Assembly: GCF_002563635.1 (NCBI RefSeq)
Contig: NZ_PDIZ01000001.1
Span: 2,728,001-2,792,000 of the forward strand
Origin: Bacillus sp. es.036
Lineage (GTDB): Bacteria > Bacillota > Bacilli > Bacillales > Guptibacillaceae
DNA length: 64,000 bases
Reading direction: 5' to 3'
Of the stretch, positions 44,189 to 62,336 are shown in pieces; within the stretch, counting starts at the first letter, position 1; each line of letters begins with the position of its first letter. The notes beneath the pieces are model-generated. The model was not told where the DNA came from. It saw only the letters and a program-made list of their open reading frames with translations, and searched no databases. Made by a program: the position numbers and the translations under genes.

Positions 44189-44228
44189 AGCTTATCTTAT
44201 TACAGATAAGCTCCGAGATTATGGAAGA
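44189..44228 (+). repeat. Array repeat 1
   Basis: Perfect stem AGCTTATC / GATAAGCT with eight-base loop, then box GCTCCGAGATTATGGAAGA. It abuts the 5' leader of the AraC gene, so it is the left end of the recognisable array. Confidence 0.9.
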
Positions 44229-44278
44229 ATTGATTTCTAGATATTCTCCTTTGATTAGATAAAAGTATATTATATGTA

Positions 44279-44353
44279 CTACTTTAAAAGAAGCCATATC
44301 ACTACTAAGATGATAGCTATTATCCCCCATAACAAAACTTGCTTATTTCTCAA
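44279..44353 (-). CDS. 24-residue single-TM peptide
   Basis: TTG start with GGGAGG eight bases before it. Sequence RNKQVLLWGIIAIILVVIWLLLK: two basic residues, one membrane helix, final Lys. Fills the unit between repeats 1 and 2. The good ribosome site argues it is real despite its size. Could be a toxin-like or regulatory membrane peptide. Confidence 0.5.
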   Translation of the reverse strand: MRNKQVLLWGIIAIILVVIWLLLK

Positions 44354-44386
44354 TCTTTTACCTCCCTTCAATAGGTTCTGATTATT

Positions 44387-44410
44387 GAGCATTCGCTCCG
44401 ATTTAAAGGA
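44387..44410 (+). repeat. Array repeat 2, short variant
   Basis: Reduced copy: GAGC-ATTC-GCTC mini-stem running into box GCTCCGATTTAAAGGAAG. Confidence 0.75.
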
Positions 44411-44443
44411 AGATCACGAATTTCCTTTGAAGGTATTGCCCGT

Positions 44444-44617
44444 CTAAGTTGAGTGCTTATTTCCTTTCTTATTTCGTCCAATTAAAATAGCAATGAAGAG
44501 AAATCCGAACCCTACTATGTTCATAATGGTATTACCTAAATTGCCTATGTCACTAATTTTTAAACCGATTAGAAAACCACCAAACAAAATAAGTGGAATA
44601 ACTATAACAAATCTCAA
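44444..44617 (-). CDS. 57-residue two-TM protein
   Basis: TTG start with CGGAGGAATAAT before it. Two membrane segments (VIVIPLILFGGFLIGLKI and TIMNIVGFGFLFIAILIG) joined by a short loop, then the basic tail RNKKGNKHST. Sole gene between repeats 2 and 3, stop about 35 bases from the repeat 2 box. No family recognised. Confidence 0.65.
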   Translation of the reverse strand: MRFVIVIPLILFGGFLIGLKISDIGNLGNTIMNIVGFGFLFIAILIGRNKKGNKHST

Positions 44618-44665
44618 AATTATTCCTCCGAACCTATATAGTGCGTTTTACTTTCACTTACTTCT

Positions 44666-44719
44666 TAAAAGCCATAAGATACTATGATTATTACAGATTA
44701 GCTCCGAGATACTGGAAGA
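44666..44719 (+). repeat. Array repeat 3, diverged long type
   Basis: TTATTACAGATTAGCTCCGAG recalls the long-type loop and right arm, but the left arm has drifted (GCCATAAGAT). Box GCTCCGAGATACTGGAAGA. Confidence 0.8.
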
Positions 44720-44748
44720 TGGTAAAAAACGATCCTTCTGTCTTAAGG

Positions 44749-44940
44749 TTAAGACTTTTCTTCTTTTGATAACAGTCCAACAATGAACATGACAATAGCA
44801 TATATAATAATCGTAGTTATTAATAAAGTTAATGGATTAAAATGATCATGCAAAAATGGGGACAAAACTATTACTATCACCAATAGTATTGCACCAGTTA
44901 TTTTTTGGTTTTTCTTCTTTTTTGCAACTTCCATTTTCAA
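44749..44940 (-). CDS. 63-residue two-TM protein
   Basis: TTG start with GGGAGG six bases before it. Basic start MEVAKKKKNQK, then two membrane helices (ITGAILLVIVIVLSPFL and LTLLITTIIIYAIVMFIVGLL) and tail SKEEKS. Only gene between repeats 3 and 4; the stop is about 30 bases from the repeat. No family recognised. Confidence 0.68.
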   Translation of the reverse strand: MKMEVAKKKKNQKITGAILLVIVIVLSPFLHDHFNPLTLLITTIIIYAIVMFIVGLLSKEEKS

Positions 44941-45002
44941 TGATAACCTCCCTTTATTCCTGGGTTGCTCTTAAATAATGAAATAGCTGCAAAGACACCT
45001 TA

Positions 45003-45033
45003 CTCAACATTCGCTCCGAGATTATGGAGTAAG
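45003..45033 (+). repeat. Array repeat 4
   Basis: CAACATTCGCTCCGAGATTA then TGGAGTAAG; within the box CTCC pairs with GGAG across GAGATTAT. Stop codon of the next gene begins at its right end. Confidence 0.85.
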
Positions 45034-45486
45034 CTATTTACAGCTTAAAATATCATTATTCAGAACCACTGGTCCCAACTTTCCAGTTTTAGAATTGGAA
45101 GCTCTCACTTGAACTTTAGCATTGTTTAATTTTGCAGTGATCAAGTCAAACCTTCCCGACCAGGTAGGACTATCTTCTTCTGGAGTAGGATAAAGTCTGA
45201 ACCTCCAGCTTATTTCACCAGGTATAAAAGCAAATCCCTCATAAATATCATATTCGCCGTATGTAGAGGGTTCAGGTAGATGAACACTTAAGATACTGAT
45301 ATTAGTTCTGGCAAAGCTTGGTGGAATCAATTGAACTTTATAAATTAGTGCACTTCCTCTTGCATTAGTAAGACCTTCATCGATTGGGTCTAACACCATA
45401 CTGCAAGGCATTGAGATAGCAATTGATTCTTTAGGAAAAAGAACTACTGAAGCCAGAAGGGATGTAATCAATAGAGTTTTTTTCAT
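45034..45486 (-). CDS. Secreted protein of unknown function, 150 residues
   Basis: Signal peptide MKKTLLITSLLASVVLFPKESIA, then about 127 residues with two Cys (in MPCSMV and at the C-terminus LSCK) that may form one disulfide. The middle, YIYEGFAFIPGEISWRFRLYPTPE-like with WSGRFDLITAKLNNAKVQVRAS, suggests a beta-sandwich. GAGAGG before the ATG. Its stop touches the repeat. No family recognised. Confidence 0.72.
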   Translation of the reverse strand: MKKTLLITSLLASVVLFPKESIAISMPCSMVLDPIDEGLTNARGSALIYKVQLIPPSFARTNISILSVHLPEPSTYGEYDIYEGFAFIPGEISWRFRLYPTPEEDSPTWSGRFDLITAKLNNAKVQVRASNSKTGKLGPVVLNNDILSCK

Positions 45487-45557
45487 ATGTATACCTCTCT
45501 TTTTTTGATTAGCTTTCCCTAATGACTACTCAATATATGAATTAGCTGCTTGATATA

Positions 45558-45588
45558 CTTCAGCAAACGCTCCGACGTTAATTGAATA
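45558..45588 (+). repeat. Array repeat 5
   Basis: CTTCAGCAAACGCTCCGACG followed by TTAATTGAATA. The right box is diverged (GACGTTAATTGAATA); left arm weak. Confidence 0.7.
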
Positions 45589-45605
45589 ACAGTACACTAA
45601 TTAAC

Positions 45606-45761
45606 TTAAAACATTAGATTTCGTAGGAATAAAACACCATATAGTAAAGCTCCTCCAATAAAAACTAACAGTCCGACCATTACAAAACCATAGATATATC
45701 CTTTCCCCATTGCAAATAAGTCTGAAATAATATTCTTAACAGTATTGAATAGTATTTGCAT
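45606..45761 (-). CDS. 51-residue single- or two-TM protein
   Basis: ATG with GAGGGGG before it. MQILFNTVKNIISDLFAMGK forms an amphipathic start, then YIYGFVMVGLLVFIGGALLYGVLF a membrane segment. Sole gene between repeats 5 and 6, stop 18 bases from repeat 5. No family recognised. Confidence 0.65.
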   Translation of the reverse strand: MQILFNTVKNIISDLFAMGKGYIYGFVMVGLLVFIGGALLYGVLFLRNLMF

Positions 45762-45874
45762 AGTACCCCCTCTAACATAACAATTGTTACTCTAGCTATC
45801 TTAATTATTAATACGAAACATTCTCTTGAATGCTTTCATATCTCTTCAACGGAAAACTTTTTAAACCTACATAG

Positions 45875-45918
45875 GGAGTTCATTTTTTATTAAGCAAGCG
45901 CTCCGAGATTGTTGAAGA
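45875..45918 (+). repeat. Array repeat 6, short type
   Basis: GGAG-TTCATTTTTTATTAAGC...GCTCC with box GCTCCGAGATTGTTGAAGA; CCTACATA stands just before. The remaining 250 bases to the next gene look like promoter DNA only. Confidence 0.85.
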
Positions 45919-46165
45919 CTCGATATCAAGATAATTAAAACCCAAAAAACAGAATTTAGACGATTCAACTTGGATAAAACTATCTTACGACTAATTTAGT
46001 TATGAATTGAACTAGCCAGAAAACATTCTATATAGATAAATCAAAAAGGGTACAATATGTTTAGTGAAACAAAAAATAATATATCGTTTATCTTAGAGCT
46101 ATGAAATAATTCATTCAAAAGATTTCAATTTCAGATCTACAACAATCAAGTTTAAGGAGTATAGG

Positions 46166-46699
46166 ATGAAAAAAACTCTACTTTCAGGTGCACTATTAAT
46201 ATTCATAATAGTTATTGTAAATCATCTTTCTGCCTCAGATTTTGAAGAGAAGAAAGCATTGGAAGTATCAAATTCTAACTTACAGGCAGCTGATTTCAAC
46301 TTAAGTAATTTTAATGGTGAAAACTACTCATTAGAAGTTCTTCAAGAAAAACCGTTGATAATTAATTTTTGGGCATCCTGGTGTGGACCGTGCAATAATG
46401 AAGCACCACTTCTCGTTGATTTATACGAACAATATGGAGAAAATATTGAGTTTTACGGCATTAACACCACTGATGGAGAACTAAAAATCAAAGATGCCAA
46501 AGGATTTATGGAGAAATTCAACATTAATTTTCCTGTATTATTAGATATTGAAGGTAGTGTATCCAAAGAATATGGAGTCATAGCGTTACCGACTACCTAC
46601 TTTATTGATCAAAATGGAGTTATAGTTGATAAAATTCTAGGTGAAGCCTCAAAAGAAGAGCTTGAAATGAAAATAAAAAAATTAATAAATGAAACATAA
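46166..46699 (+). CDS. ResA/TlpA-type membrane thiol-disulfide oxidoreductase
   Basis: 177 residues, AAGGAG site. One N-terminal membrane anchor (TLLSGALLIFIIVIVNHLS), then a thioredoxin fold facing outside with active site WASWCGPCNNEAP (Cys 74 and 77) and cis-proline in IALPTTYFID. One of few plus-strand cargo genes. ResA/StoA relatives reduce cytochrome c apoproteins or spore proteins; no partner genes are near, so the target is open. Confidence 0.88.
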   Translation: MKKTLLSGALLIFIIVIVNHLSASDFEEKKALEVSNSNLQAADFNLSNFNGENYSLEVLQEKPLIINFWASWCGPCNNEAPLLVDLYEQYGENIEFYGINTTDGELKIKDAKGFMEKFNINFPVLLDIEGSVSKEYGVIALPTTYFIDQNGVIVDKILGEASKEELEMKIKKLINET

Positions 46700-46825
46700 A
46701 TCTGATAATGTTCAATATTCAATTAGATGGCATTTGAAAAGTTGGAATTAGTGACCTCTATGAATTTAGATTGATTTTACAAACTCTAGATAACCTTTTC
46801 TTTCCTCGTCCTCCTGTTTTTTTAT

Positions 46826-47059
46826 TTAAGCTCTTTTCTTTTCAATTAATGTCCAAACTCCATAAATCAATATGGAAGCAGCCATCATTATTAAGAAGGC
46901 ATTAGTAATTAAATTAAAATCTAATTCATTAATTGTTTTAGTAATTTCACCGTTCTTTCCGGTTTGGTGAATTGTCCAGCCATTGTAGCCCAGAAAAAAA
47001 TACGAAAGCGTAAATGCGATTATTAAACCGCCTAATAAAGAAAACCAAGTTTTCATCAT
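46826..47059 (-). CDS. 77-residue two-TM protein
   Basis: ATG after AAGGGG. Membrane helices at 7-25 and 52-70 separated by an external loop NGWTIHQTGKNGEITKTINE. Converges with the ResA-like gene; both lie between repeats 6 and 7, so this unit has two genes. No family recognised. Confidence 0.7.
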   Translation of the reverse strand: MMKTWFSLLGGLIIAFTLSYFFLGYNGWTIHQTGKNGEITKTINELDFNLITNAFLIMMAASILIYGVWTLIEKKRA

Positions 47060-47138
47060 AGACCAACCCCTTTTTACACTCTATGTCCTTAATGGCTCTT
47101 CAGTATTATCTTCAATAATTCTTATACAAAACTACATA

Positions 47139-47183
47139 GAGCGCTTCCTTTTTATTGCGGAAACGCTCCGAGATTGTTGAAGT
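47139..47183 (+). repeat. Array repeat 7, short type (model copy)
   Basis: Arms GAGCGCTTCC and GGAAACGCTC pair over 10 bases with one mismatch, ten-base loop, box GCTCCGAGATTGTTGAAGT. ACTACATA precedes. Confidence 0.92.
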
Positions 47184-47205
47184 CTCGATTTCATAACATA
47201 GGGAT

Positions 47206-48105
47206 TTATTCTTTCACTTTTATACTATTAAAAATGGAGTCTACAGCTCTCTTTATAACTTCAGGATTTTCAAGATGAACCCTATGTCCGGACTCTTTTG
47301 CCAAAATATATTTAGTGTTGGAGTTTAACTTTGTTTGATTGCGAATTAAATTTTGCCATATATTTTCTATGTCTTCGGCTTCTGACTTATGTAACCCTTC
47401 ACTTTCTACCATTTCTATAATTGAAGCCTTTGGATCCCTACCTATCACTATAGTAAAAGTATCAGGGAAGGCTTTGTAATAATTCGTTTCCCTGGACAAT
47501 AGGTCAAATTCTAGTTCTTCACTTAGAGATTCGAACATGGTCGGGTTACTCATAAATTTCTCTACTTCTTTATGACTGATGCTTGGTAATATCTCTTTAA
47601 GCTCATTAACCCAATCTGCCATCTCCAGTTGTAGATGTTTTTTTGAAAGACCGGAATATGTTTTACATTTTTCTATCCAAGCTTCTGTACTATTGCCGTC
47701 CTCTCCCTCGATCTCAACTTCATCAAGCCTATAAGCATCAAATGAAGTTGAGTCGACTAAAACAAACCCACTAGCCACGTTCGGATACTCCTGAGCAAAT
47801 TGCTGAAGAATGAGTCCTCCGTATGAATGACCTATGATAATAGGTGAAGTAATACTAAGTTTCTTAATTAGTGCATTTAGATCCTTTGCGTTTTCCCTGC
47901 GATTTCTTGTTGTTATCCCTTTATCACTCTTGCCGCAGCCAGCTCTATTGTAAATAATAACTCTTGCGTGTCTTGAAAGATCTTCCCACAAAGCATTCCA
48001 TTCAGATAAAGGACTTATCATACCTGGTTGGATGATTATAGTTCTACCATTGCCTTTCATCCATACCTCGAGCTCTTTGTCACCGATATCGACGAGTTTC
48101 TTAAT
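47206..48105 (-). CDS. Alpha/beta-hydrolase
   Basis: About 299 residues. Nucleophile elbow GHSYGGLILQQF (Ser about 94), oxyanion HG-equivalent IIQPGMISPLSEW, catalytic His in ESGHRVHLENPE near the C-terminus. Strong site GGAGGTG stands at 48112-48118, inside the frame that begins at an ATG at 48129, so I take the ATT at 48105, eight bases after it. Whether ATT or that ATG is used needs N-terminal data. Stop is about 25 bases from repeat 7. Substrate unknown. Confidence 0.85.
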   Translation of the reverse strand: MKKLVDIGDKELEVWMKGNGRTIIIQPGMISPLSEWNALWEDLSRHARVIIYNRAGCGKSDKGITTRNRRENAKDLNALIKKLSITSPIIIGHSYGGLILQQFAQEYPNVASGFVLVDSTSFDAYRLDEVEIEGEDGNSTEAWIEKCKTYSGLSKKHLQLEMADWVNELKEILPSISHKEVEKFMSNPTMFESLSEELEFDLLSRETNYYKAFPDTFTIVIGRDPKASIIEMVESEGLHKSEAEDIENIWQNLIRNQTKLNSNTKYILAKESGHRVHLENPEVIKRAVDSIFNSIKVKE

Positions 48106-48183
48106 ATTAATCACCTCCAAGTGTCCCATTTACTTCTGATATATCTCGTTTCATAGGGAAGTGAAGGACACTTAACTATTATT

Positions 48184-48210
48184 AGATAATCGCTCCGATT
48201 ATCAGGAATA
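48184..48210 (+). repeat. Array repeat 8
   Basis: GATAATCGCTCCGATTATC is itself an inverted repeat around the box; no long left arm. Box continues CAGGAATA. Confidence 0.75.
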
Positions 48211-48259
48211 AGCGAGGATCTTCTATTAAATAGTTTTATCTAGTATCAAACCATTTCTG

Positions 48260-48550
48260 TTAGTGATAGGATTCATATTTTATAAAGAAGGGGATGAACG
48301 TAGAAATACATATGCCCATCAAAACCATATAAATCAACCTAACACCAATAGAATAGCTGGATAAATAGAACCCAAAAATCAACATCGGAAGAATAATTGA
48401 TAGAGACACTAAAACTCTTGATAAATATGTAATCTTATTTTTCGTCCCGCAATTATTACAAGTGATTGGTCTGTAAATTCCCCAGATATTTTTTATTATG
48501 GTTCTCCATTTAAAAGGTTTCCCACATCTATTACACTTTGGTAACCCCAT
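48260..48550 (-). CDS. Zinc-ribbon membrane protein (CxxC-20-CxxC type)
   Basis: 96 residues from the ATG at 48550 with GAGGAG before it. CNRC and CNNC (about 24 residues apart) form the ribbon, then two membrane helices. Close relative in layout of 39021-39332: both have PKC-xx-CG, FKW and two C-terminal helices. So one copy lies in the array and one outside it. Stop 50 bases from repeat 8. Confidence 0.78.
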   Translation of the reverse strand: MGLPKCNRCGKPFKWRTIIKNIWGIYRPITCNNCGTKNKITYLSRVLVSLSIILPMLIFGFYLSSYSIGVRLIYMVLMGICISTFIPFFIKYESYH

Positions 48551-48620
48551 CCAATTCACTCCTCATACATTTCCTTTATATCACCCTTTACCGTTTACTC
48601 TGCTATGATATTGCATAATC

Positions 48621-48640
48621 GCTCGGAGATAATGGAATAT
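48621..48640 (+). repeat. Array repeat 9
   Basis: GCTCGGAGATAATGGAATAT, with one change in the core (CTCG for CTCC). No clear left arm beyond TAATC. Confidence 0.75.
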
Positions 48641-48642
48641 CG

Positions 48643-48788
48643 TCATATTCCAGCTACTGAATTAATATACCGATGGTAACGCTTCCCATTGAGAGAGCAT
48701 TTTCTATAAGAGTAATCTTCCACAATCTTCGTTCTAACTTGTTCGGGGGTTAAGTACAGTTTTCGGTTTTCATAATTTCTACTGGCAA
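48643..48788 (-). pseudogene. Frameshifted small gene remnant
   Basis: A good site GGGGGAATT precedes TTG at 48788, but that frame stops after 12 codons, while the neighbouring frame stays open for 48 codons (TPEQVRTKIVEDYSYRKCS) and ends at repeat 9. Best explained as a small cassette gene broken by one frameshift. No family recognised. Confidence 0.4.
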
Positions 48789-48879
48789 TTTAATTCCCCC
48801 TATAATTTTTTCTGATATGTTAACGACTGTTCAATATATAAAGGGGAATTTTATAAAACAAAGTAAACCATTTTTAAAA

Positions 48880-49233
48880 TTAGTTAGTTTTTTTCCTGAA
48901 TTTCATCATTATTAAAAATGCTAATATGAGGTAAGCGACCAAACCTACCAACATAGGAAGTAATGCTTGTTCTTCACGGAGGAAATCAAAGTTTCTCAGT
49001 ACCCCTGCAGCTAGAATAGCAAAAGCGATGACAATTAATCCCAAGATTAATTTGTATTGTTTTCTTGAGGGGGAATCACTTAATGGATAAATCATTAATA
49101 TAACTACCAAAGAACCTACAAAGTAATAGTTTAAAGAAATCATTTCCGCACTTAGCGATTCTGCATTCATCAAGATAGCCATTTCTGTAGCTGATGCAGC
49201 TATTATTAAAAGAAACCATTTAAAATATTTCAT
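48880..49233 (-). CDS. Four-TM membrane protein, 117 residues
   Basis: ATG with GAGAGG before it. Four membrane helices; polar loop YPLSDSPSRKQYKL between helices 2 and 3; Lys/Arg tail KFRKKTN. In the unit between repeats 9 and 10, with the broken gene. No family recognised. Confidence 0.72.
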   Translation of the reverse strand: MKYFKWFLLIIAASATEMAILMNAESLSAEMISLNYYFVGSLVVILMIYPLSDSPSRKQYKLILGLIVIAFAILAAGVLRNFDFLREEQALLPMLVGLVAYLILAFLIMMKFRKKTN

Positions 49234-49359
49234 AACGCCTCTCTTTCCAATATTAATATCTTTGGAACCTTATTTAAGATTTCTTTCTTCATATTAAACC
49301 ACTTAATTCATTAAAATATCTCGGTATTAAAGACTTCACCTATGCTGCGCATACCTCTA

Positions 49360-49457
49360 ATACCAATTATTTCAAATCCACCTACATAACTCAATCTTTT
49401 ATTTCAAATTAAAAGGAGCCTATCCTATTACAGATAAGCTCCGATTATATTGAATAA
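49360..49457 (+). repeat. Array repeat 10, long type
   Basis: Starts TACCAATTATTTCAAAT, contains CCTACATAACTCAATC, stem GGAGCCTATC / GATAAGCTCC, box GCTCCGATTATATTGAATA. Confidence 0.92.
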
Positions 49458-49518
49458 GAAGTATAACTATTGTAATGTATAATCGATATGGTAATTTCCA
49501 TCCAAAAGGAGGTAGATC

Positions 49519-49758
49519 TTGAAAAAATCTCATATTTTTAATATCTTTTCAGGCATTCTTATTACTATCATATGGATTTATCAGATTGTAGCAAATGGAG
49601 CCTACCCTTTGTTACCACTAGTGATGATTGTATTGGTCCTGATATTATACATAATGGAACGAAAGGGCGTAGACACTGTTTATTGGGCTGCACCAACTAT
49701 TGTATTGCTTCTAATTAGCTTATGGACTATGGTTCCAGAATTCTTTTTTGGACCTTAA
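49519..49758 (+). CDS. 79-residue three-TM protein
   Basis: ATG-type start (TTG GAA preceded by AAGGAGG; first codon TTG/ATG of KKSHIF). Hydrophobic helices IFSGILITIIWIYQIV, LVMIVLVLILYIM and TIVLLLISLWTMV. Plus-strand gene, reading away from the majority, with its own hairpin terminator at 49863-49895. No family recognised. Confidence 0.7.
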   Translation: MKKSHIFNIFSGILITIIWIYQIVANGAYPLLPLVMIVLVLILYIMERKGVDTVYWAAPTIVLLLISLWTMVPEFFFGP

Positions 49759-49862
49759 AAAATTTTTTCGTAACAACAAATTCTGTTCAGGATTACCGAC
49801 TATAAATCAAAAGACAAACAGCAGTAAAAATTAAATGTGTTACTCGCTTATATCTCAAAAAA

Positions 49863-49910
49863 GAGCTTGGTACGACTTTTTTGGTTCCAAGCTCTAAAAA
49901 CGTTTTTTTT
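49863..49910 (+). terminator. Terminator of the 79-residue membrane-protein gene
   Basis: GAGCTTGG / CCAAGCTC stem, then TAAAAACG and a run of eight T. It lies just before repeat 11. Confidence 0.85.
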
Positions 49911-49911
49911 C

Positions 49912-49941
49912 TCCGTAAAAGCTCCGAGATTGTTGAATATG
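49912..49941 (+). repeat. Array repeat 11
   Basis: CCGTAAAAGCTCCGAGATTG then TTGAATATGG; left arm reduced. It includes GTTGAAT, the only copy whose end matches the integron GTTRRRY core, probably by chance. Confidence 0.8.
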
Positions 49942-49957
49942 GTTTCTTGTATATCAT

Positions 49958-51187: not shown

Positions 51188-51317
51188 AACCGCAGTACCT
51201 CCTGAGTTTTATAATATCGATGTTGTACAACTCAGAAATCACATTGGAATCCCTCGCTTTTCGTTTAATTTTATCCAGCAACATCTTTAACCTACCAGAC
51301 ATTTAGGATGCATCTCT

Positions 51318-51416: not shown

Positions 51417-51428
51417 AAATAGTTTTGG

Positions 51429-55383: not shown

Positions 55384-55403
55384 GGTTAAAGGAGAGAAAT
55401 TAA

Positions 55404-55532: not shown

Positions 55533-55677
55533 TACATTAGCACTCATAGGGGAATTTCCTTATGGTGTACTATGCTAGTAAATTATTACAATACATCATC
55601 GTTATTCAATAATAAAGCGCCATGTATAAGTAAAAGAACTCATTAGAAAACTATTCTTTTCCGCTTCTATTTAATTT

Positions 55678-55730
55678 CCAGAAGGTCACCTCTCATGCTT
55701 ATATGAAGAATGGCCTTCTGGTTTCTTTTG
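55678..55730 (+). terminator. Terminator after the secreted-protein operon
   Basis: CCAGAAGG / CCTTCTGG stem with a long loop, then TTTCTTTTG. Between 55533 and repeat 14 nothing else stands out. Confidence 0.7.
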
Positions 55731-55876
55731 TAAGTCGGAAGTATTACTGGTTACAATATATGTTAGAGGCAACATAATTTAAAATAGATAACGAAAAGTA
55801 CTCTAATCGAGTCAATTCACTTTCTCCTTTGTTTAGAAAAACCTCTCATTCTTTACTCCATTAAGCTGTCCTATAC

Positions 55877-55926
55877 CTACATTGATCGCAACTTTCGTTA
55901 AGTAAACGCTCCGAGATAACGGAACT
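55877..55926 (+). repeat. Array repeat 14, short type
   Basis: CCTACATTGATCGCAACTTT start, weak arm AACTT / AAGT, box GCTCCGAGATAACGGAACT. Confidence 0.85.
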
Positions 55927-55976
55927 ATAACGAAATGATTTTAACTAATATAAAACTGCTAAGTTGATTTTTCAGC

Positions 55977-56609
55977 TCAGTTATTTATTGAATTCATTAA
56001 CTGAAAGAAGTATTCAGGTTTATGAGTCTTATTTAGGTTATACCATGAATGTAATGTATCTGGTGCAAATACATCTAATTTTTTCAGTACTTCCATCGCA
56101 AATTCCAGAGGAGCTATTCCTGATGCAGTAATTAAATTCGCATCAGTTACGGCAGATCCCAACTCATAAAACTTTTCTCCTTTATAGTTAGGACATACCA
56201 TTTTAGTATATTCTAAGTTATTACTTGTATGCTTTCTAGTATCTAAGTATCCCATATTCGCGAGGCCCTCAGTTGCACCACAAATTGAAGCAACAATAGT
56301 GCCAAGCTTTAAAGCTTGGCCAATACTTTCCAAGATAGGTTGATGAATTTCTTCACTCCAAGTAGTCCCTCCTGGTAAAATTAAAAGATCTTTACTCTCA
56401 AGAGTACATTCATTAAGGGAAATATCTGGTATTATGTTCAGTCCTCCCATAGTAGTAATCATTTCTTTATTAGCTCCTACTGTAATGACTTTTAAAGGTG
56501 CTAAATCTTTTTTGAAATATCTTCCTGAGTTTAGTTCAGCAATTAAATATCCATATTCCCAGTCTGACATTGTATTAAATACATATAAAACAACCTTTTT
56601 TGTTTGCAT
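55977..56609 (-). CDS. DJ-1/PfpI family protein
   Basis: 210 residues from the ATG at 56609 with TGGAGTG before it. Flavodoxin-like fold; nucleophile Cys in VASICGATEGLANMG (about 104), early Glu position in LYVFNTMSDWEYGYLI, and DLLILPGGTTW. Members are glyoxalases, deglycases or transcription cofactors. Follows the WYL regulator gene on the same strand with a terminator between, both within one unit. Confidence 0.88.
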   Translation of the reverse strand: MQTKKVVLYVFNTMSDWEYGYLIAELNSGRYFKKDLAPLKVITVGANKEMITTMGGLNIIPDISLNECTLESKDLLILPGGTTWSEEIHQPILESIGQALKLGTIVASICGATEGLANMGYLDTRKHTSNNLEYTKMVCPNYKGEKFYELGSAVTDANLITASGIAPLEFAMEVLKKLDVFAPDTLHSWYNLNKTHKPEYFFQLMNSINN

Positions 56610-56655
56610 CCAATAACACTCCAATCACATTTGATATAGTCAGTATAATAAAACT

Positions 56656-56682
56656 TCCCTGACAGTTAGCGTCAGGGAAGTG
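56656..56682 (-). terminator. Terminator of the WYL regulator gene
   Basis: CTTCCCTGAC / GTCAGGGAAG stem followed by TTTTATTATA on the minus strand, separating it from the DJ-1 gene. Confidence 0.8.
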
Positions 56683-56683
56683 A

Positions 56684-57646
56684 TTATACTTCATGAAATT
56701 TTATTAATTCCGACAGAACTTCAATAAGTCTTTTCTTAAGACTTATTGGCTCAATAACTTTAATAGATTTGTTGTACGGTAAAAGTAAATAAGGTACATA
56801 TGTATGGATCACATCTTTTTCAAGAAGAAAAACGGCTCGATTTGAAGACCGTTCTTTTAAATAATGTCCTAAAAACCAATGCTGACAAATATCATCCAAT
56901 ACACTCTTATCCCCACTAATGACGAAAGATATTCCCTCTTCCTTATCTTCTACAGTTGGAAGAAGACTTTTTATAAAAAAGTCATGTGCTGAAAAATTTT
57001 CTGGCCGGTTAAACTTATTTTCGGTTAGCATTAGACTTTCTATTCGATCTACTCTAAAACTACGGATATCATTCCTAAGATGACAAAAGCCAATCACATA
57101 CCACTTATTATTCCAATAGATAATTCTGTATGGATCGACCAATCTATCATTTAATTGCTTTTCACTACTTTTATGGTAAAGAATTTTTACTGAGTACCCG
57201 TCAGCTACGGCCTGCTCCAACTCTTTCAAAAGAGGTTCAATAGAGAGTGAGCTTAATCGACTTATTACTTCAAGACTAGTTAAATGTTGGTTTATCTTTG
57301 TTTCCTGCTCTTGATTTGAGTATTTACTTAGTTTTGAAATGGCCCTATTCAGTGCTTCACCTCCATAATATCCGGCTTCTTCTGCAAAAACAGCAGCGTG
57401 ATACAATGAAGTTTGTTCCTCAAAATCAAAGAAAAGAGGAGCCTCAATAAAATTATTCAGTAAAGTGTATCCACCGTTATGTCCTGGTTCTGAAATGATA
57501 GGTACGCCACTTGTTGAAATGGTATCAATATAACGATACACAGTTCTTATATTCATCTCTAACTTTTCTGAAATTTGTTTTGCAGTAATTTTTTCACCTG
57601 AACGAAGCATCCATAGAATTGCTAACATATTGTCAATTTTAGGCAT
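56684..57646 (-). CDS. HTH-WYL transcription regulator (YafY/DeoR-like)
   Basis: 320 residues, GAGGTGG site. N-terminal winged helix: MLAILWMLRSGEKITAKQISEKLEMNIRTVYRYIDTI. WYL domain at about 140-300: VDPYRIIYWNNKWYVIGFC (the W-Y-V core) and DIRSFRVDRIESL. Upstream neighbour of the DJ-1 gene, a possible target. WYL proteins also recur in phage-defence loci, but no defence genes are adjacent. Confidence 0.9.
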   Translation of the reverse strand: MPKIDNMLAILWMLRSGEKITAKQISEKLEMNIRTVYRYIDTISTSGVPIISEPGHNGGYTLLNNFIEAPLFFDFEEQTSLYHAAVFAEEAGYYGGEALNRAISKLSKYSNQEQETKINQHLTSLEVISRLSSLSIEPLLKELEQAVADGYSVKILYHKSSEKQLNDRLVDPYRIIYWNNKWYVIGFCHLRNDIRSFRVDRIESLMLTENKFNRPENFSAHDFFIKSLLPTVEDKEEGISFVISGDKSVLDDICQHWFLGHYLKERSSNRAVFLLEKDVIHTYVPYLLLPYNKSIKVIEPISLKKRLIEVLSELIKFHEV

Positions 57647-57823
57647 ATAATTCCACCTCTATATGAAATTTATTTCCTATTATGTATTTCCGATTTTGGT
57701 GTTCCGATAGCTTTCTATATTATGTGGCCCTTACAGGAGCAGTATCTAAATTAGTTAGGGGTACCGTTAGAAATATGCGGACTTATAACGCTAAGCCTAT
57801 TTTCCTATCGCCCACACATCTGC

Positions 57824-57921
57824 AATACCAATTATTTCAAATTAGTACAAATAACTCAATCTATTCTTTCACACTAAAAGGAGCCTATCTTGTTACAGAT
57901 AAGCTCCGAAGATAATCGAAC
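57824..57921 (+). repeat. Array repeat 15, long type
   Basis: AATACCAATTATTTCAAATT, ATAACTCAATCTATTC, stem GGAGCCTATC / GATAAGCTCC, box GCTCCGAAGATAATCGAACA. The region between 57647 and here holds no supported gene. Confidence 0.9.
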
Positions 57922-57945
57922 AAGTGCTTCTCTAGGAATGAATAA

Positions 57946-58140
57946 CTAATTTCGATTTACTTTTCTTAAAGTTATAATTATTATCAATTGATACACTGTA
58001 AATGAAACCCCTAGCAAGGCTATAAATACTAGTGATAACAGTGAATTCGCGATACTATTACTTTTAAGCAATAAAAAAGATACTCCAATCCAAAAAACTA
58101 TTAACCTTATTATTCTATTTGTTACGTGTGATTTGAACAT
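57946..58140 (-). CDS. 64-residue two-TM protein
   Basis: ATG with AAAGGAAG. Basic start MFKSHVTNRIIR, helices LIVFWIGVSFLLLKS and LLSLVFIALLGVSFTVYQLIIII, tail LRKVNRN. Only gene between repeats 15 and 16. No family recognised. Confidence 0.7.
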   Translation of the reverse strand: MFKSHVTNRIIRLIVFWIGVSFLLLKSNSIANSLLSLVFIALLGVSFTVYQLIIIITLRKVNRN

Positions 58141-58161
58141 TTTACACTTCCTTTAATTAAC

Positions 58162-58230
58162 ACTCCAGCCCTAAACCTACTACGTAGAGCGCTTACTTAA
58201 TGTTAAGCAAACGCTCCGAGATTGCTTAAT
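58162..58230 (+). repeat. Array repeat 16, short type
   Basis: CACTCCAGCCCTAAACCTAC opening, shared with repeat 21; arms GAGCGCTTAC / GCAAACGCTC (8 of 10 paired); box GCTCCGAGATTGCTTAATA. Confidence 0.88.
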
Positions 58231-58306
58231 AAACAAATCTCCAAGAAAAGAAGATAATGATAAGTAAAATTTTTCATTATTCATAAATAATCCCTGTTTA
58301 AAAATA

Positions 58307-58747
58307 CTATGCATTAACAGAAGAACGCATTGATTTCATCTTTTCCTTTTCATCAAACTTCCAAAATAATGAAGCAGAAGCGATCACTACTAACAACCAG
58401 GGGCTAGTACTTATTAGATAATCTAGAGTGTTTACTAACTTTGAATTAGAAAAAACAAACAAGAACAGCAATATCCCAACCCCGTTATGTACGATATAAG
58501 AGTAAAACTTCCGATGGTTTTTTTCGGCAGTAAGTTGATCAGCTGTCACCGAAATTGGAATACCAATGATTATAATTGCTGGAATTAGATATATAATCAT
58601 TAAAAATGAGCCGCCAATCGCAACAGATATTTCCCCGTCTCCTCCAGTCAACTTATAGATAATCCCCCCTACAGTCATAATAACGATACAGAACAACCAA
58701 GTCAGAATGGAAGTTATCAACGCTGTTTTGAGTTTGCTAAATAGCAT
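58307..58747 (-). CDS. Four-TM membrane protein, 146 residues
   Basis: From the ATG at 58747 with AAGGAG before it. Four hydrophobic helices, external loop IYKLTGGDGEISVAIGG, cytoplasmic TAEKNHRKFYSYIVHNG and tail FDEKEKMKSMRSS. Only gene between repeats 16 and 17. No family recognised. Confidence 0.72.
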   Translation of the reverse strand: MLFSKLKTALITSILTWLFCIVIMTVGGIIYKLTGGDGEISVAIGGSFLMIIYLIPAIIIIGIPISVTADQLTAEKNHRKFYSYIVHNGVGILLFLFVFSNSKLVNTLDYLISTSPWLLVVIASASLFWKFDEKEKMKSMRSSVNA

Positions 58748-58810
58748 AGTAATTAACTCCTTATTTGTGTGTTTTGTACACCCCATTTTCGAAATAACGT
58801 TTTAGAGAAT

Positions 58811-58872
58811 CTTGCCTAAAACTCATAGAGCGATTCCTTTTTATTAAGCAAACGCTCCGAGATAATTGAAGA
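58811..58872 (+). repeat. Array repeat 17, short type
   Basis: CCTAAAACTCATAGAGCG opening, arms GAGCG / CGCTC with AT-rich inner part, box GCTCCGAGATAATTGAAGA. Confidence 0.85.
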
Positions 58873-58935
58873 TTCAGTTTCAAGAAAAACATTACCATTT
58901 CTAGTTTAATCCTTTGTTCCATGATCAGATAAATC

Positions 58936-58981
58936 TTGACATGATTTCTTCGCTGTTCTAAAATGACTTATAAGTCATTTT
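58936..58981 (+). promoter_or_regulatory. Promoter and palindromic operator of the TetR gene
   Basis: -35 TTGACA at 58936-58941, 17-base spacer, -10 TAAAAT at 58959-58964. A perfect 22-bp palindrome, AAAATGACTTA / TAAGTCATTTT (58960-58981), overlaps the -10 and start site. A TetR dimer bound there would block its own transcription. Confidence 0.88.
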
Positions 58982-59011
58982 TGACCTATGCGTCAAAAAA
59001 AGGAGGCCTTT

Positions 59012-59617
59012 ATGTCTGATAGAATGGCTAAAAAATTTTTAAAAAGAAACAAACTAATTCTAGAAACAGCTGAAGAGTTAATTAGAGATCATGGTTACCA
59101 TCAGGTAAAAATGAGTGATATATCTGAGAAACTAGATATAGCGAAAGGAACCCTCTATTCTCACTACCAATCAAAAGAGCAACTTGTCTTTTCCATTGTA
59201 AAACCTAAGATTGACAGTTTCTTAATTACTATGGAAAAAATAGACACGAGCGACCTTTCTGAAAGCAAAAAAGTTCTATCCTTTATTGAGATGGGATTTC
59301 GTAGTGACTTTTTCCATTTCGTTTTATCAAGCTTTCCTGATATGGGAGCTATCTTCAGTGAAGATCATAACTCAGAACTTAACCAAATCCAGAAAAAAAT
59401 CATTGTTATTTTTGAACGTGTAATAGTCAAAGGAACAAAAAACAAAACTTTTCAAACGAATATGTCCTCAAACTTTTTAGCGCTACAGTTAATGCAGATG
59501 TTTGATCCTCTTATTTATAAAACACTAGTATCCTCAGGTACAATGAGTTCTAATGAATTTGTAAATCAGTCTATTACATTTTTTATGACAGTAATCAATA
59601 GTAAAGGGGAATTTTAA
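59012..59617 (+). CDS. TetR-family regulator
   Basis: 201 residues from the ATG at 59012 with AGGAGG. HTH: ILETAEELIRDHGYHQVKMSDISEKLDIAKGTLYSHYQSKEQL. C-terminal ligand domain unremarkable. Followed after one base by the NTF2-like gene, so the two form an operon under a self-operator. A whole regulated operon, promoter included, within one unit between repeats 17 and 18. Confidence 0.92.
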   Translation: MSDRMAKKFLKRNKLILETAEELIRDHGYHQVKMSDISEKLDIAKGTLYSHYQSKEQLVFSIVKPKIDSFLITMEKIDTSDLSESKKVLSFIEMGFRSDFFHFVLSSFPDMGAIFSEDHNSELNQIQKKIIVIFERVIVKGTKNKTFQTNMSSNFLALQLMQMFDPLIYKTLVSSGTMSSNEFVNQSITFFMTVINSKGEF

Positions 59618-59618
59618 G

Positions 59619-60218
59619 ATGGATTATTCTAAACTGAGAACTAAAAAATTTGAAGAAGTGTTTACTGAAAGTGAGTACTCAAGCTTAAGGGAATTTTTGA
59701 TACAGGCCTACTTGTTTCTTGACGAATCAAATAAAATTGAAGCTAGAAGACTCTTAGTGAATACATTTGGACTTAGTGAAGAAGAGCTCAATGAAAGATC
59801 TACAGCGTTTATACATCATAGTTCAATTAAAGCTACCCTTCTTACCACGATAAAAACCGCAGAAAACTGGGTCGAAAACTCAAATCAAAAAGATATCCCT
59901 GGATTACTCAATTTATCTCATTCAGACATAGAAATAATGGGGCCAAAAGGTTCTATTAGTGGAAGTCAACATTTAGGTGATTGGATAGACCGCGCCAACC
60001 TCCACCTTCATACCATTCGGCGCTTTGCAAAAGGTCACAATATTGTTCTTGAGCAGCAAGGTACTTGGTATGAAGAAAGTGATCAAGTAAAAGGTCAGAA
60101 TATCGTTTACACGTTCATGAGAGTTATTGACGGAAAGGTTGCTTTCTTAGGAAGATACGACAATAAGATTAAAGCTTTTCAAGTTAGTGAATTAAATGAG
60201 GGGAACCTGATTGAATAA
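59619..60218 (+). CDS. Protein with C-terminal NTF2/SnoaL-like domain
   Basis: 199 residues, ATG directly after the TetR stop, GGGGAATTTT as site. N-terminal 80 residues helical (FLIQAYLFLDESNKIEARRLL). Residues 85-199 have the NTF2-like pattern: SDIEIMGPKGSISGSQHLGDW and the beta strands VLEQQGTWYEES, NIVYTFMRVIDGKVAFLGRYDN. Probably binds or turns over a small molecule that the TetR protein senses. Exact family not assigned. Confidence 0.65.
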   Translation: MDYSKLRTKKFEEVFTESEYSSLREFLIQAYLFLDESNKIEARRLLVNTFGLSEEELNERSTAFIHHSSIKATLLTTIKTAENWVENSNQKDIPGLLNLSHSDIEIMGPKGSISGSQHLGDWIDRANLHLHTIRRFAKGHNIVLEQQGTWYEESDQVKGQNIVYTFMRVIDGKVAFLGRYDNKIKAFQVSELNEGNLIE

Positions 60219-60254
60219 AATAAAGTGCCTCTTACAAAGAGCCACTTTATTTTA
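60216..60254. terminator. Convergent hairpin terminator
   Basis: TAAAATAAAGTG / CACTTTATTTTA with inner CTCTT / AAGAG stem: about 16 paired bases, A/T runs on both sides. Confidence 0.85.
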
Positions 60255-60259
60255 GATTT

Positions 60260-60280
60260 GCTCCGATTATGTGGAGTAGT
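60260..60280 (+). repeat. Array repeat 18, short box only
   Basis: GCTCCGATTATGTGGAGTAG; CTCC pairs with GGAG inside the box. The left arm is replaced by the terminator before it. Confidence 0.78.
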
Positions 60281-60286
60281 GCGATT

Positions 60287-60826
60287 CTACGAAACCAATT
60301 TTTTTGAGTGGATAATTGGGGCTCTATCTTTATTTGATACATCAATTAAAGCAACCTCTACCATCTGTCCAAGAATGGTGTCATTTCTTCTAGAACAATA
60401 ATTAAATGCTTCAGATAATTTTTCTGCTGTTAATCTATTAGCTATTGTACAGTGAGGTATCCAGCTATCAGGTGAATACAATGAGCTAGGGTCATCATTA
60501 AAATGTCTGAAGTTTTTATGATGATTATTATGAAAGTCAATTAAGTCTTTAGTGACGGTGGGCGTATAGAATAAAGCTCCCGAATTCAAGAACGAACCAA
60601 TTGTGTTAAAAGAAATATCAATTACTGTCTTTCCATTGTAGTAATCATCCATTTGTTTCATAAAATCAAATTGGTTTAGGTCATTATAACTTGCCAATGT
60701 AATGTGTGGCTTTCTACTCTCCACTTCATATGCATAAGAAGAAATTGACTTTTGGTTTAACTCTTTCCAAATATCCTTTATTATGTGATCTGTTTTTTCA
60801 TCGAAAGTAGCTATAAATCCATACAC
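60287..60826 (-). CDS. 2H phosphoesterase (2'-5' RNA ligase-like)
   Basis: 179 residues from a GTG at 60826 with AAAGGTGG before it; an open frame to 60886 has no site. Both catalytic HxTx motifs are there: HITLA near residue 44 and HCTIA near 134. N-terminal YGFIATFDEKTDHIIKDIW is typical of the YjcG/LigT class. Such enzymes act on cyclic phosphates of RNA or ADP-ribose products. Stop codon just right of repeat 18. Confidence 0.88.
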   Translation of the reverse strand: MYGFIATFDEKTDHIIKDIWKELNQKSISSYAYEVESRKPHITLASYNDLNQFDFMKQMDDYYNGKTVIDISFNTIGSFLNSGALFYTPTVTKDLIDFHNNHHKNFRHFNDDPSSLYSPDSWIPHCTIANRLTAEKLSEAFNYCSRRNDTILGQMVEVALIDVSNKDRAPIIHSKKLVS

Positions 60827-60967
60827 AAGACGCCCACCTTTAAATTCTGATATTGAAATTGCCTCTGTAATTAACTTAAACAACAAAGAGCGTAATACTT
60901 TCTAAATTAACGCCATCGTTTCGTTAACTCTTGGTTTCAAGACTCTCGCAGAAACAGTTACCTATAT

Positions 60968-61144
60968 TTATTCCCACTCACTAAAACATCTTGAACAATA
61001 TATAATTTGTTCAGGGCCCCAGGCTTTTAAAAGAGTCCACCCATTTAGCTTTTTCAGTGTAGCAATAATTGCCATCTTCTCATCTTTTTCTACTTCTCTT
61101 CCGCAATTTTTGCAAGTAACTTATCGCCAATAATAAGTATCCAC
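60968..61144 (-). pseudogene. Small zinc-ribbon gene with in-frame stop
   Basis: From GTG at 61144 the frame reads seven codons, a TAA at 61121-61123, then 50 codons: TCKNCGREVEKDEKMAIIA and QIIYCSRCFSEWE before the final stop. CKNC and CSRC make a zinc ribbon, related in style to the two CxxC-20-CxxC genes. Either a nonsense mutation or a start I cannot see. Shares the unit with the 2H gene. Confidence 0.5.
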
Positions 61145-61270
61145 CCTCTCGATAAACTTCTAATTTAGTAACTTATTAGCTTCACCTTTTAAATACGTTT
61201 GAATAAAAAATACGTTTCACGATTCAAACTATCTCGAAACTGAGTATTCAACTAACCTTCCAAAATTTCT

Positions 61271-61366
61271 AATACCAATTATTTCGAATAAATCCGCATA
61301 ACTGCGTCTTTAATTCCAGTTAAAGGAGCCTATCTTATTACAGATAAGCTCCGAGATTATGGAATA
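61271..61366 (+). repeat. Array repeat 19, long type (model copy)
   Basis: AATACCAATTATTTCGAAT start, CCGCATAACT, stem GGAGCCTATC / GATAAGCTCC, box GCTCCGAGATTATGGAATA exactly the consensus. Confidence 0.94.
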
Positions 61367-61408
61367 CCGTTATGCTTCTAATATGTGCTGGTAAACCTTT
61401 AAAATGGA

Positions 61409-61642
61409 TTATAGAAAATACACTAAGGCACAAGCGAACCCTGTGACAAAGTAAGTTATTAATCCTCTGACCCTATATTTTTTTTCAACACCTGTTCTCT
61501 TCTCTAACCCTCGTATGTAGTCATAAATAACCATAAGACATACTAGAATGGCAATACCAAAGAAATCATCGCCTTCAACTATTAACACCATCGAAAAAAC
61601 AGTAGATATAGCAAATGCAATATTGGTAACTATTGTTTTAAT
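61409..61642 (-). CDS. 77-residue membrane protein, apparent ATT start
   Basis: The only well-placed ribosome site, GGGAGG, stands nine bases before an ATT at 61642; an ATG 17 codons later (61591) has none. From ATT: KTIVTNIAFAISTVFSMVLI, FFGIAILVCLMVIYDYI and YFVTGFACALVYFL give three membrane helices. Only gene between repeats 19 and 20. No family recognised. Confidence 0.65.
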   Translation of the reverse strand: MKTIVTNIAFAISTVFSMVLIVEGDDFFGIAILVCLMVIYDYIRGLEKRTGVEKKYRVRGLITYFVTGFACALVYFL

Positions 61643-61692
61643 GGTAACCTTCCTCCCAATCCCACATAGTCTATTTTCTTTTTTTCTTTCTC

Positions 61693-61746
61693 TGAGCTAA
61701 GCACTTACACTTTATTAAGTAAATGCTCCGAGATTGTAGAGTAATG
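61693..61746 (+). repeat. Array repeat 20, short type
   Basis: GAGC upstream; arms GCACTTAC / GTAAATGC (7 of 8 paired) with a ten-base loop; box GCTCCGAGATTGTAGAGTA. Confidence 0.88.
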
Positions 61747-61749
61747 TAT

Positions 61750-61947
61750 TCACTCCACTTTCTTATCTACATATACTCCTACGAGAAAACGAAGCAATAG
61801 ATATAACAAAATAGTGACCCCACCCACTATGAATACGTTATAATCATCAAATAATACCGTTGCCAAAATGATTGCGATAACTAAATAAATAACTGCAAAC
61901 CCTTGCTGATATCTCCTCTTTTTAGATAACTCATTTGGATACCTCAA
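61750..61947 (-). CDS. 65-residue two-TM protein
   Basis: TTG at 61947 with TGGAG eight bases before it; an upstream ATG at 61980 lies in repeat sequence. Charged start RYPNELSKKRRYQQG, helices FAVIYLVIAIILATVLF and NVFIVGGVTILLYLLLRFLVG, tail VYVDKKVE. Only gene between repeats 20 and 21. Confidence 0.68.
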   Translation of the reverse strand: MRYPNELSKKRRYQQGFAVIYLVIAIILATVLFDDYNVFIVGGVTILLYLLLRFLVGVYVDKKVE

Positions 61948-61952
61948 TTCAT

Positions 61953-62034
61953 TCACTCCAGTCCTAAATCTGAAAGTCAACCTACATAAAGAGCAGACTT
62001 TTTATTCTGTAAATGCTCCGATTTTATGGAGTAA
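61953..62034 (+). repeat. Array repeat 21, short type
   Basis: CACTCCAGTCCTAAATCTG opening as in repeat 16, CCTACATAAAGAGCAGAC, arms GAGCA / TGCTC, box GCTCCGATTTTATGGAGTA. The gene on its left starts inside the opening. Confidence 0.88.
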
Positions 62035-62074
62035 GTTCAGTTCAATTTCCTTCAAATAATCCGAACAACATCGA

Positions 62075-62275
62075 CTAATTATTTGTAGTTTGCTTTTTAA
62101 GTCGTATTACTTCGGCAATAATACTCACTATTGCTCCAACTAATAATACCAAGAAAGTCCAAGATGTTATGTTCATCCCATTATCATTAACAGAATGACT
62201 ACGATAAAATCCATTAGCTGCTAATAGGATTACAATTAAATTGAAACCTATGTAAAATCTTCCTCCACGCTTAAT
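62075..62275 (-). CDS. 66-residue two-TM protein, apparent ATT start
   Basis: AAGGAGG stands seven bases before an ATT at 62275, and no ATG, GTG or TTG exists in this frame near it. Reading KRGGRFYIGFNLIVILLAANG then ITSWTFLVLLVGAIVSIIAEVI: two membrane helices, tail RLKKQTTNN. Only gene between repeats 21 and 22. No family recognised. Confidence 0.68.
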   Translation of the reverse strand: MKRGGRFYIGFNLIVILLAANGFYRSHSVNDNGMNITSWTFLVLLVGAIVSIIAEVIRLKKQTTNN

Positions 62276-62312
62276 TGGAATTCCTCCTTTTCTATTGGAT
62301 ATAATTACAATT

Positions 62313-62336
62313 CGTTTATTGCTCCGATTTAATCAA
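62313..62336 (+). repeat. Array repeat 22
   Basis: CGTTTATTGCTCCGATTTAATC: box with weak left arm. The TAA stop of the next minus-strand gene lies inside the box. Confidence 0.78.

Follow-up and report, generated by a model that had tools for sequence, protein, structure and literature searches.

Can a bacterium keep a library of gene cassettes in the manner of an integron with a recombinase that is not an integron integrase? Integrons are regarded as a single family that shares one kind of integrase. The question is raised by a 64,000-nucleotide stretch of Bacillus sp. es.036 DNA (hereafter the window; assembly GCF_002563635.1, contig NZ_PDIZ01000001.1, positions 2,728,001 to 2,792,000; the genome is called G000 below), in which an earlier note had proposed an integron-like array of cassettes separated by a repeat. 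Our reading, at a probability of roughly 0.83, is that the array is a platform for gene cassettes that operates as an integron does and uses a XerA-like tyrosine recombinase encoded nearby. It is carried by the sites, the shuffling of cassettes with breakpoints at the site, attI-like junctions in relatives, the association of the recombinase with arrays and its kinship, all read from sequence. In its manner of operation the array is an integron analogue; it does not belong to the integrons proper, because the defining feature of the integrase was tested and is absent. It is also probable, if a little less so, that this is an independent second invention of the integron, in which a plasmid or prophage XerA-like recombinase gave rise to a genome-wide cassette-capture platform in Bacillus relatives, one that has an attI of its own, spacers specific to each lineage and exchangeable cassettes by the hundred.

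The earlier note counted about 22 repeats in one orientation, and we likewise find 22 copies at 44197–62340, all on the + strand. Eighteen satisfy a strict rule (presence of CTCCGA and no more than 6 mismatches to the 19-base box) and four are altered or decayed; the box of the earlier note, at up to 3 mismatches, matches 11 times in the window, always on the + strand, where shuffles lead one to expect 0.01. A position matrix trained on the 18 strict sites scores at least 30 at 18 places, namely 17 strict sites and the one at 48621 (spacer GCTCGGA), and gives 15.3 to the site at 62321; background reaches 7.8 at 44967 and, at the best + place beyond the array, 6.8 at 31836. Two GCTCCGA places, 45569 (7.4) and 57903 (6.9), score at this background level and are counted by context, without matrix support, as probable decayed sites, and a hairpin at 51397 with GCTCCC in place of the spacer and no right (R) arm brings the total to 22. 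A site consists in order of a left (L) arm, a near-invariant 7-bp spacer GCTCCGA and an inverted R arm, the arms being roughly TTATTNNNNAANN and GATTNTGGAATAA. The six bases CTCCGA are 98–100% conserved in 101 G000 sites, which follow one another at a median spacing of 620 bp (97 intervals in four G000 clusters). The array and its sites, with the evidence for each, are:

44197–62340, + strand: whole cassette array (box matches, hairpin and matrix scans)
44197–44229, + strand: recombination site, spacer GCTCCGA at 44210 (box match and matrix)
44382–44414, + strand: recombination site, spacer at 44395 (matrix)
44688–44720, + strand: recombination site, spacer at 44701 (box match and matrix)
45000–45032, + strand: recombination site, spacer at 45013 (box match and matrix)
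45556–45588, + strand: probable decayed site, GCTCCGA at 45569 (matrix score 7.4, background level)
45887–45919, + strand: recombination site, spacer at 45900 (box match and matrix)
47152–47184, + strand: recombination site, spacer at 47165 (matrix)
48179–48211, + strand: recombination site, spacer at 48192 (matrix)
48608–48640, + strand: recombination site, altered spacer GCTCGGA at 48621 (box match and matrix)
49425–49457, + strand: recombination site with a strong hairpin, spacer at 49438 (matrix and terminator/hairpin scan)
49908–49940, + strand: recombination site, spacer at 49921 (box match and matrix)
51384–51416, + strand: probable decayed site, hairpin with GCTCCC at 51397, R arm lost (sequence; the adjoining element is a member of the repeat family labelled D4)
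52180–52212, + strand: recombination site, spacer at 52193 (box match and matrix)
55895–55927, + strand: recombination site, spacer at 55908 (matrix)
57890–57922, + strand: probable decayed site with hairpin, GCTCCGA at 57903 (matrix score 6.9, background level)
58200–58232, + strand: recombination site, spacer at 58213 (matrix)
58841–58873, + strand: recombination site, spacer at 58854 (box match and matrix)
60247–60279, + strand: recombination site, spacer at 60260 (matrix)
61335–61367, + strand: recombination site with the exact box, spacer at 61348 (box match and matrix)
61712–61744, + strand: recombination site, spacer at 61725 (box match and matrix)
62002–62034, + strand: recombination site, spacer at 62015 (box match and matrix)
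62308–62340, + strand: last array site, spacer at 62321, weaker R arm; homology with the sister genome G009 resumes here (matrix score 15.3, G009 comparison)

Left of many hairpin-bearing sites stands a repeated element of about 110 bp (AATACCAATTATTTCAAAT ... ATAACTCAATCTTTTATTTCA; for example at window positions 49335–49420), and a similar AATACCAATTATTTCA comes after some sites in other genera.

The window array is one of five clusters on contig C1 (at about 0.21, 0.37, 1.62–1.67, 2.61–2.63 and 2.77–2.79 Mb) that together hold nearly all of the 58 box matches in G000, and the reversed pattern has no match in that genome. The earlier note had suggested searching related genomes for the box. 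It occurs in 13 of 14 genomes of the genus, with 1 (G012) to 58 matches per genome, and among 397 genomes of the order it matches 12 genus genomes at up to 2 mismatches. Outside the genus, 18 genomes have one or two scattered matches, and the reversed control matches 7 others. In 26 stretches from 11 genus genomes, a sample of their arrays, 397 sites lie on the array strand and 6 on the opposite one.

Do whole cassettes move between these arrays? We compared the 26 stretches for shared blocks (at least 150 bp at 85% identity or more, inside arrays) and obtained 303, of which 52 are within one genome and 251 between genomes. Left ends fall at a site in at least one copy for 195 of the 303 blocks and in both copies for 143; the corresponding counts for right ends are 205 and 154. 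A random point of one copy falls at a site 3.6% of the time. Blocks most often start on spacer base 1 (73 of 303 first copies), whereas their ends scatter more widely and peak at base 7, the last of the spacer (29), and along the conserved R arm. When pairs were anchored right of a site, DNA 15–85 bp to the left was also homologous in 21 of 441 (4 of 65 within genomes) and DNA 95–165 bp to the left in 11 of 441 (0 of 65), compared with 245 and 228 of 260 at mid-cassette points. Repeated flanks change partners: 47 of 50 left flanks are joined to several right partners and 68 of 72 right flanks to several left partners. One block of the window, 55908–57920, recurs at 99% identity in the 1.62-Mb cluster of G000. 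By these comparisons cassettes are evidently joined at the sites and have been reshuffled with breakpoints there, both between species and within one genome. The earlier note had asked whether whole units are gained, lost or reordered at breakpoints inside the repeat, and between species this is what we see.

The sister genome G009 gives the same picture at one edge. Window DNA at 13158–42860 (with a break at 38393–39438) and from 62321 onward recurs there in the same order, and the conserved flanks enclose 19.5 kb in the window versus 2.9 kb in G009, with no common block longer than 250 bp listed between them. At the right-hand switch, a GCTCCGA, the DNA to the left differs and that to the right is alike; the left-hand switch, at 42860, has no clear site.

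These data bear on the plainest alternative, that the repeats are ordinary transcription terminators or dispersed repeats and that gene blocks were duplicated by homologous recombination. Four of the 11 terminator-like matches in the array do overlap sites, on the gene strand, and array contents vary between species. However, 11 matches is near the shuffle mean of 8.9, most sites have none, no Rfam family matches at the sites up to an E value of 0.1, and a fixed asymmetric spacer that varies by lineage is not expected of terminators. Blocks also stop at the site and hardly ever cross it, and we find this explanation barely credible.

If cassettes are recombined at the sites, which enzyme does it? 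The candidate gene and the region upstream of it lie left of the array:

41465–42307, − strand: tyrosine recombinase of 280 aa, XerA/XerC/D-like, proposed cassette recombinase (PF00589, 132.6 bits; relatives beside arrays in other genera)
42308–42400, + strand: attI-like region upstream of the recombinase gene, here in a degenerate form that lacks an intact spacer (TTATTTTATAATC); its ~90-bp leader is conserved in the genus, with junctions in relatives

The recombinase gene is 1.9 kb from the array, and the catalytic tyrosine of its product is Tyr264. Orthologs at 80–99% identity occur in 8 of 14 genus genomes, counting the window's own, and that of G009 is 99% identical. The one genus genome without boxes, G001, has no ortholog either, and G008, which has boxes and no full ortholog, keeps a 3′ remnant of the gene at an array edge. 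In G011 a cassette is joined at the end of the conserved ~90-bp leader, the junction upstream of the recombinase reading TTATTCCATAATC-GCTCCGA-GATTGTTGAAGA, and in relatives a conserved stretch of about 70–210 bp upstream of the gene ends in the spacer. Among 43 pairs (26 loci) more than 72% identical in this attI-like stretch, 42 differ beyond the spacer (identity 0.09–0.65, against a random mean of 0.37 and maximum of 0.64) and one pair (0.86) has its first cassette in common; attI spacer positions were chosen by best match, and single cases may be off. An attI-like region thus stands beside the recombinase gene in relatives (intact, for example, in B. horikoshii and Sutcliffiella) and in G011, and in degenerate form in the window itself. 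Neither it nor the recombinase had been mentioned in the earlier note, whose proposed likeness to an integron they complete.

Relatives in other genera were located through the protein, because their spacer differs. A scan of named genomes with the recombinase gave 44 loci, the long matches outside the genus being mostly 75–84% identical, in Sutcliffiella, Rossellomorea, Fictibacillus, Pontibacillus, Ectobacillus, Ureibacillus, Neobacillus, Cytobacillus and Bacillus species; weaker or partial matches are 47–69% identical, one of them in Anoxybacillus. At least three sites lie nearby in 24 of 35 relative loci scanned (one of the 35, G012, belongs to the genus itself), and site matches at these loci number 154 on the array strand, versus 36 on the opposite strand, 13 for the reversed pattern and 11 after mononucleotide shuffling. 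Sites in other genera have a similar R arm and differ in the spacer, largely by lineage: GCGCCC in Ureibacillus, Pontibacillus and others, GCACCC in Fictibacillus, and GCCCCC in part of Rossellomorea and its kin. Within the genus, Alkalihalobacillus sp. CinArs1 (L104, genome G012) encodes a recombinase 80% identical to that of the window beside an array with the spacer GCTCCC, and has a single GCTCCGA-box match in its genome; by sequence comparison, the spacer has switched within the genus.

Host XerC/XerD might instead move the sites, as in dif-like modules, with the nearby recombinase incidental. The site is dif-like in form, with inverted arms and a spacer of 6–7 bp, and boxes persist in five of the six genus genomes that lack the recombinase. 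Yet dif proved to be a single, distinct site in the three genomes where it was compared, so that the cassette sites do not match the host dif; both in the genus and beyond it, the recombinase gene is immediately preceded by a conserved junction region; and 24 of the 35 relative loci have three or more sites. We regard this alternative as unlikely.

The enzyme itself is XerA-like in its best-scoring models, which are XerA/XerC/XerD; against NF040815 (XerA-like) it reaches 219.1 bits, just short of the curated cutoff of 220, on either side of which relatives score 222.8 (B. horikoshii) and 218.7 (R. vietnamensis). The integron integrase model TIGR02249 matches in two stretches with 94.8 bits versus a cutoff of 265. 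In profile searches of solved structures, 4a8e (XerC-like, archaeal) scores 141, XerD 135.5 and IntI4 68.9 bits. A structure model (mean pLDDT 81.8, pTM 0.57) finds XerA 5hxy as its best Foldseek match and IntI4 (2a3v) at rank 9, which we do not use as main evidence. The additional domain near patch III of IntI-type integrases, named as a defining integron trait in a paper on archaeal integrons (PMC9668308), is present in two Bacillota IntI (L161, L162) and absent from the window protein and from L099 and L119. In a tree of 39 proteins, 21 cassette recombinases form one clade (support 99/99), whose nearest kin are a Peribacillus plasmid enzyme and a P. caeni prophage enzyme. Grouping these cassette recombinases with IntI costs 31.6 log units (approximately unbiased (AU) test, p 0.00095, with two IntI rows, both on long branches); the test took 24 of the 39 proteins, omitting four long-branch rows and eleven close to kept ones, and a third IntI match (L163) is in neither tree. 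IntI scores above cutoff in 2 of 398 Bacillota genomes searched and in G000 not at all. One Bacillota genome (G703) has two proteins above the integron integrase cutoff, at C1:1041228 and C1:953606.

Could this still be a true integron that has diverged so far, in integrase and sites alike, as to be no longer recognizable? The layout is the same (recombinase, attI, one-way array), hairpins are enriched at the sites, and the attC boxes, RYYYAAC and GTTRRRY, are contained in the relatives' L arm TTATTCAACAATC and R arm GATTGTTGAATAA (as GTTGAAT), respectively. GTTRRRY fits 9 of 96 G000 sites, and the earlier note's remark that the repeats lack this core holds less well for the relatives' consensus, although the 24 matches among 138 relatives' sites are circular, since sites were picked with that consensus. 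A second left-hand site of the attC kind is too weak to claim (motif 25–75 bp left at 14 of 136 sites versus 4 and 5 in control windows). Against a diverged integron stand the missing IntI insert, the low TIGR02249 score, the AU result with its two IntI rows, the plasmid and prophage XerA-like enzymes as nearest kin, the block starts, which fall on the spacer, left of the GTT, and the reversed direction of the genes. We judge it very unlikely. The earlier note had left the choice at convergent or deeply diverged; convergence fits better, and deep divergence fares poorly.

How might such a platform work? A cassette would begin with the R arm, just right of a spacer, contain a gene that usually lies on the opposite strand, and finish with the L arm of the following site, so that an excised circle would carry one complete site of L arm, 7-bp GCTCCGA and R arm. 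The XerA-like recombinase (41465–42307), akin to plasmid and prophage enzymes, would exchange strands within the spacer by conservative site-specific recombination, and cassette circles would be inserted at the attI-like site beside its gene or at array sites. The spacer would have to match between partners, and we propose that its asymmetry keeps cassettes in one orientation. We infer that the enzyme responsible is this recombinase, that cassettes move as circular intermediates and that the sites act as double-stranded, dif-like sites rather than as folded single strands, the last because many shuffled sites have no stable hairpin: among 47 shuffled left ends, the hairpin falls short of −5 kcal/mol at 19. 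A significant hairpin (z < −2) lies beside the spacer at 45 of 101 sites versus 7 of 101 random control places, and the palindromes of the earlier note are thus significant at under half of the sites.

Several observations weigh against this reading. The hairpin enrichment is not explained by a double-strand model, nor is its strand bias: the hairpin folds better on the gene strand at 91 of 101 G000 sites versus 60 of 101 control places, and in relatives at 108 of 136 sites versus 72. Arrays exist without the recombinase, six of 14 genus genomes having no ortholog and five of these still having boxes. The attI-like region of the window is degenerate, with 1.8 kb of other DNA before the first site, and that of G009 looks degenerate too. 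Eleven of the 35 relative loci have fewer than three sites, and a few match equally on the other strand (L132, 3 and 3). A left-anchored version of the breakpoint test (10 of 759 at sites versus 371 of 393 mid-cassette) is inflated by the 110-bp element, which is why the right-anchored test was made. The shuffling and attI comparisons are not independent, as they use pairs of the same sequences and two Ureibacillus loci look identical, and the cassette comparisons lie between species or within one genome. RecA-dependent exchange could move blocks, and both the activity of the enzyme and the circular cassettes are predictions from sequence.

What do the cassettes carry? Each holds one gene, sometimes two; the single, unrelated genes of the earlier note are thus borne out in the mixture of protein families and less so in the number. 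Of 90 cassettes in four G000 clusters, 79 have their longest open reading frame (ORF) on the − strand, opposite the box, which in the window is toward the recombinase; integron cassette genes, by contrast, read away from intI and from a common promoter, Pc. In the window alone the figure is 11 of 15, one of the 11 being an intron reverse transcriptase. The stop codon lies a median of 48 bp from a site in the four clusters, and the earlier note was right that most genes share a strand and end just before a repeat. Its unit, a gene plus a palindromic 3′ site, does not survive the comparison: breakpoints assign that hairpin to the neighbouring cassette, and a gene's own hairpin is on its 5′ side. 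Protein family searches identified the following cassette genes in the window:

46166–46699, + strand (minority strand): AhpC/TSA-thioredoxin family
47206–48129, − strand: alpha/beta hydrolase
49958–51187, − strand: GrpB domain plus GNAT acetyltransferase
55977–56624, − strand: DJ-1/PfpI family, with a WYL regulator at 56684–57646 in the same cassette

Further cassette products include an M29 peptidase, a CAAX protease, an FtsX-like protein and a beta-lactamase-fold enzyme. When 20 of the 49 larger listed cassette ORFs of two large clusters were run against Pfam, 6 had no match.

The arrays are also oriented on the chromosome. Of 102 box matches in G000, G008 and G009, 98 face the replication fork head-on, whichever replichore they lie on (replichores are approximate for G000, which is in three contigs), and the four exceptions are isolated 3-mismatch matches. 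Bacillota genes have a general co-directional bias with replication, and the fact that most cassette genes are co-directional may simply reflect it. For chromosomal integrons, the reported orientation puts the attC bottom strand on the leading-strand template (PMC11023631).

The system can be set beside known ones. It shares with integrons, especially sedentary chromosomal ones, a one-orientation array of mostly single-gene cassettes, each parted from the next by a site, with a tyrosine recombinase and its attI-like site at one end, recombinase-less arrays elsewhere (compare the arrays termed CALINs), a reshuffled cassette order and lineage-specific sites. Unlike integrons, it has a XerA-like recombinase that lacks the IntI insert, breakpoints at a 7-bp spacer flanked by two inverted arms, many shuffled sites without a stable hairpin, genes that mostly point to the recombinase and have the hairpin 5′ of them, and several clusters per chromosome. 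With XerCD/dif and pdif modules it has in common a short dyad site with a central spacer, a Xer-type recombinase and mobile modules between sites; it differs from them in that sites are in direct repeat, up to tens per array, and a separate recombinase has its own attI-like region, dif being single and different. The XerA-like recombinases of Bacillota plasmids and prophages (NF040815) belong to the same protein group, whereas viral loci scanned show near-background site counts. Among the papers listed in an open-access library, preprints being outside its scope, none seems, judged by its title and the opening of its abstract, to describe arrays of this kind in Bacillus relatives, in agreement with the earlier note. 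For Firmicutes, the IntegronFinder 2.0 paper (PMC9024848) lists a single complete integron, in Limnochorda, besides a few CALINs.

If the reading is true, the cassette-library design evolved more than once, here in a phylum where integrons are reportedly very rare, and tools keyed to IntI and attC would miss such arrays. A pool of mobile genes, many without a known function, would become accessible, and one could test directly whether folded single-strand sites, gene direction and orientation to replication are essential traits of an integron or accidents of one lineage.

The plasmid and viral kin of the recombinase differ in what surrounds them. The enzyme of Peribacillus simplex plasmid pSHB26 (L159) is 64% identical to that of the window and by sequence is a possible mobile relative of the cassette platform. 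The plasmid loci L159, L160, L170 and L171 have 3, 3, 0 and 5 site matches on the array strand and 2, 0, 1 and 0 on the opposite one. The P. caeni prophage enzyme is 57% identical, and no repeat array was found near its gene. Recombinase kin were found at 75 viral loci, and the 35 scanned have 18 matches on the array strand, 8 on the opposite and 8 for the reversed pattern, near background, with one locus having 3 sites; the 13 box matches in viral contigs are all single. On pSHB26, two tyrosine recombinase genes (12001–12840 and 9873–10724) lie near each other.

Two group II introns accompany the window array. One, at 52357–54154 on the − strand (Rfam D1–D4 and Intron_gpII matches), is inside the cassette 52193–55908, its reverse transcriptase split into two overlapping frames at 52429–52914 and 52797–53762. 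The other extends from 62632 to about 65339, beyond the window, with its 3′ end placed at 62632–62716 by Rfam; it is missing from G009, where the flanks are contiguous.

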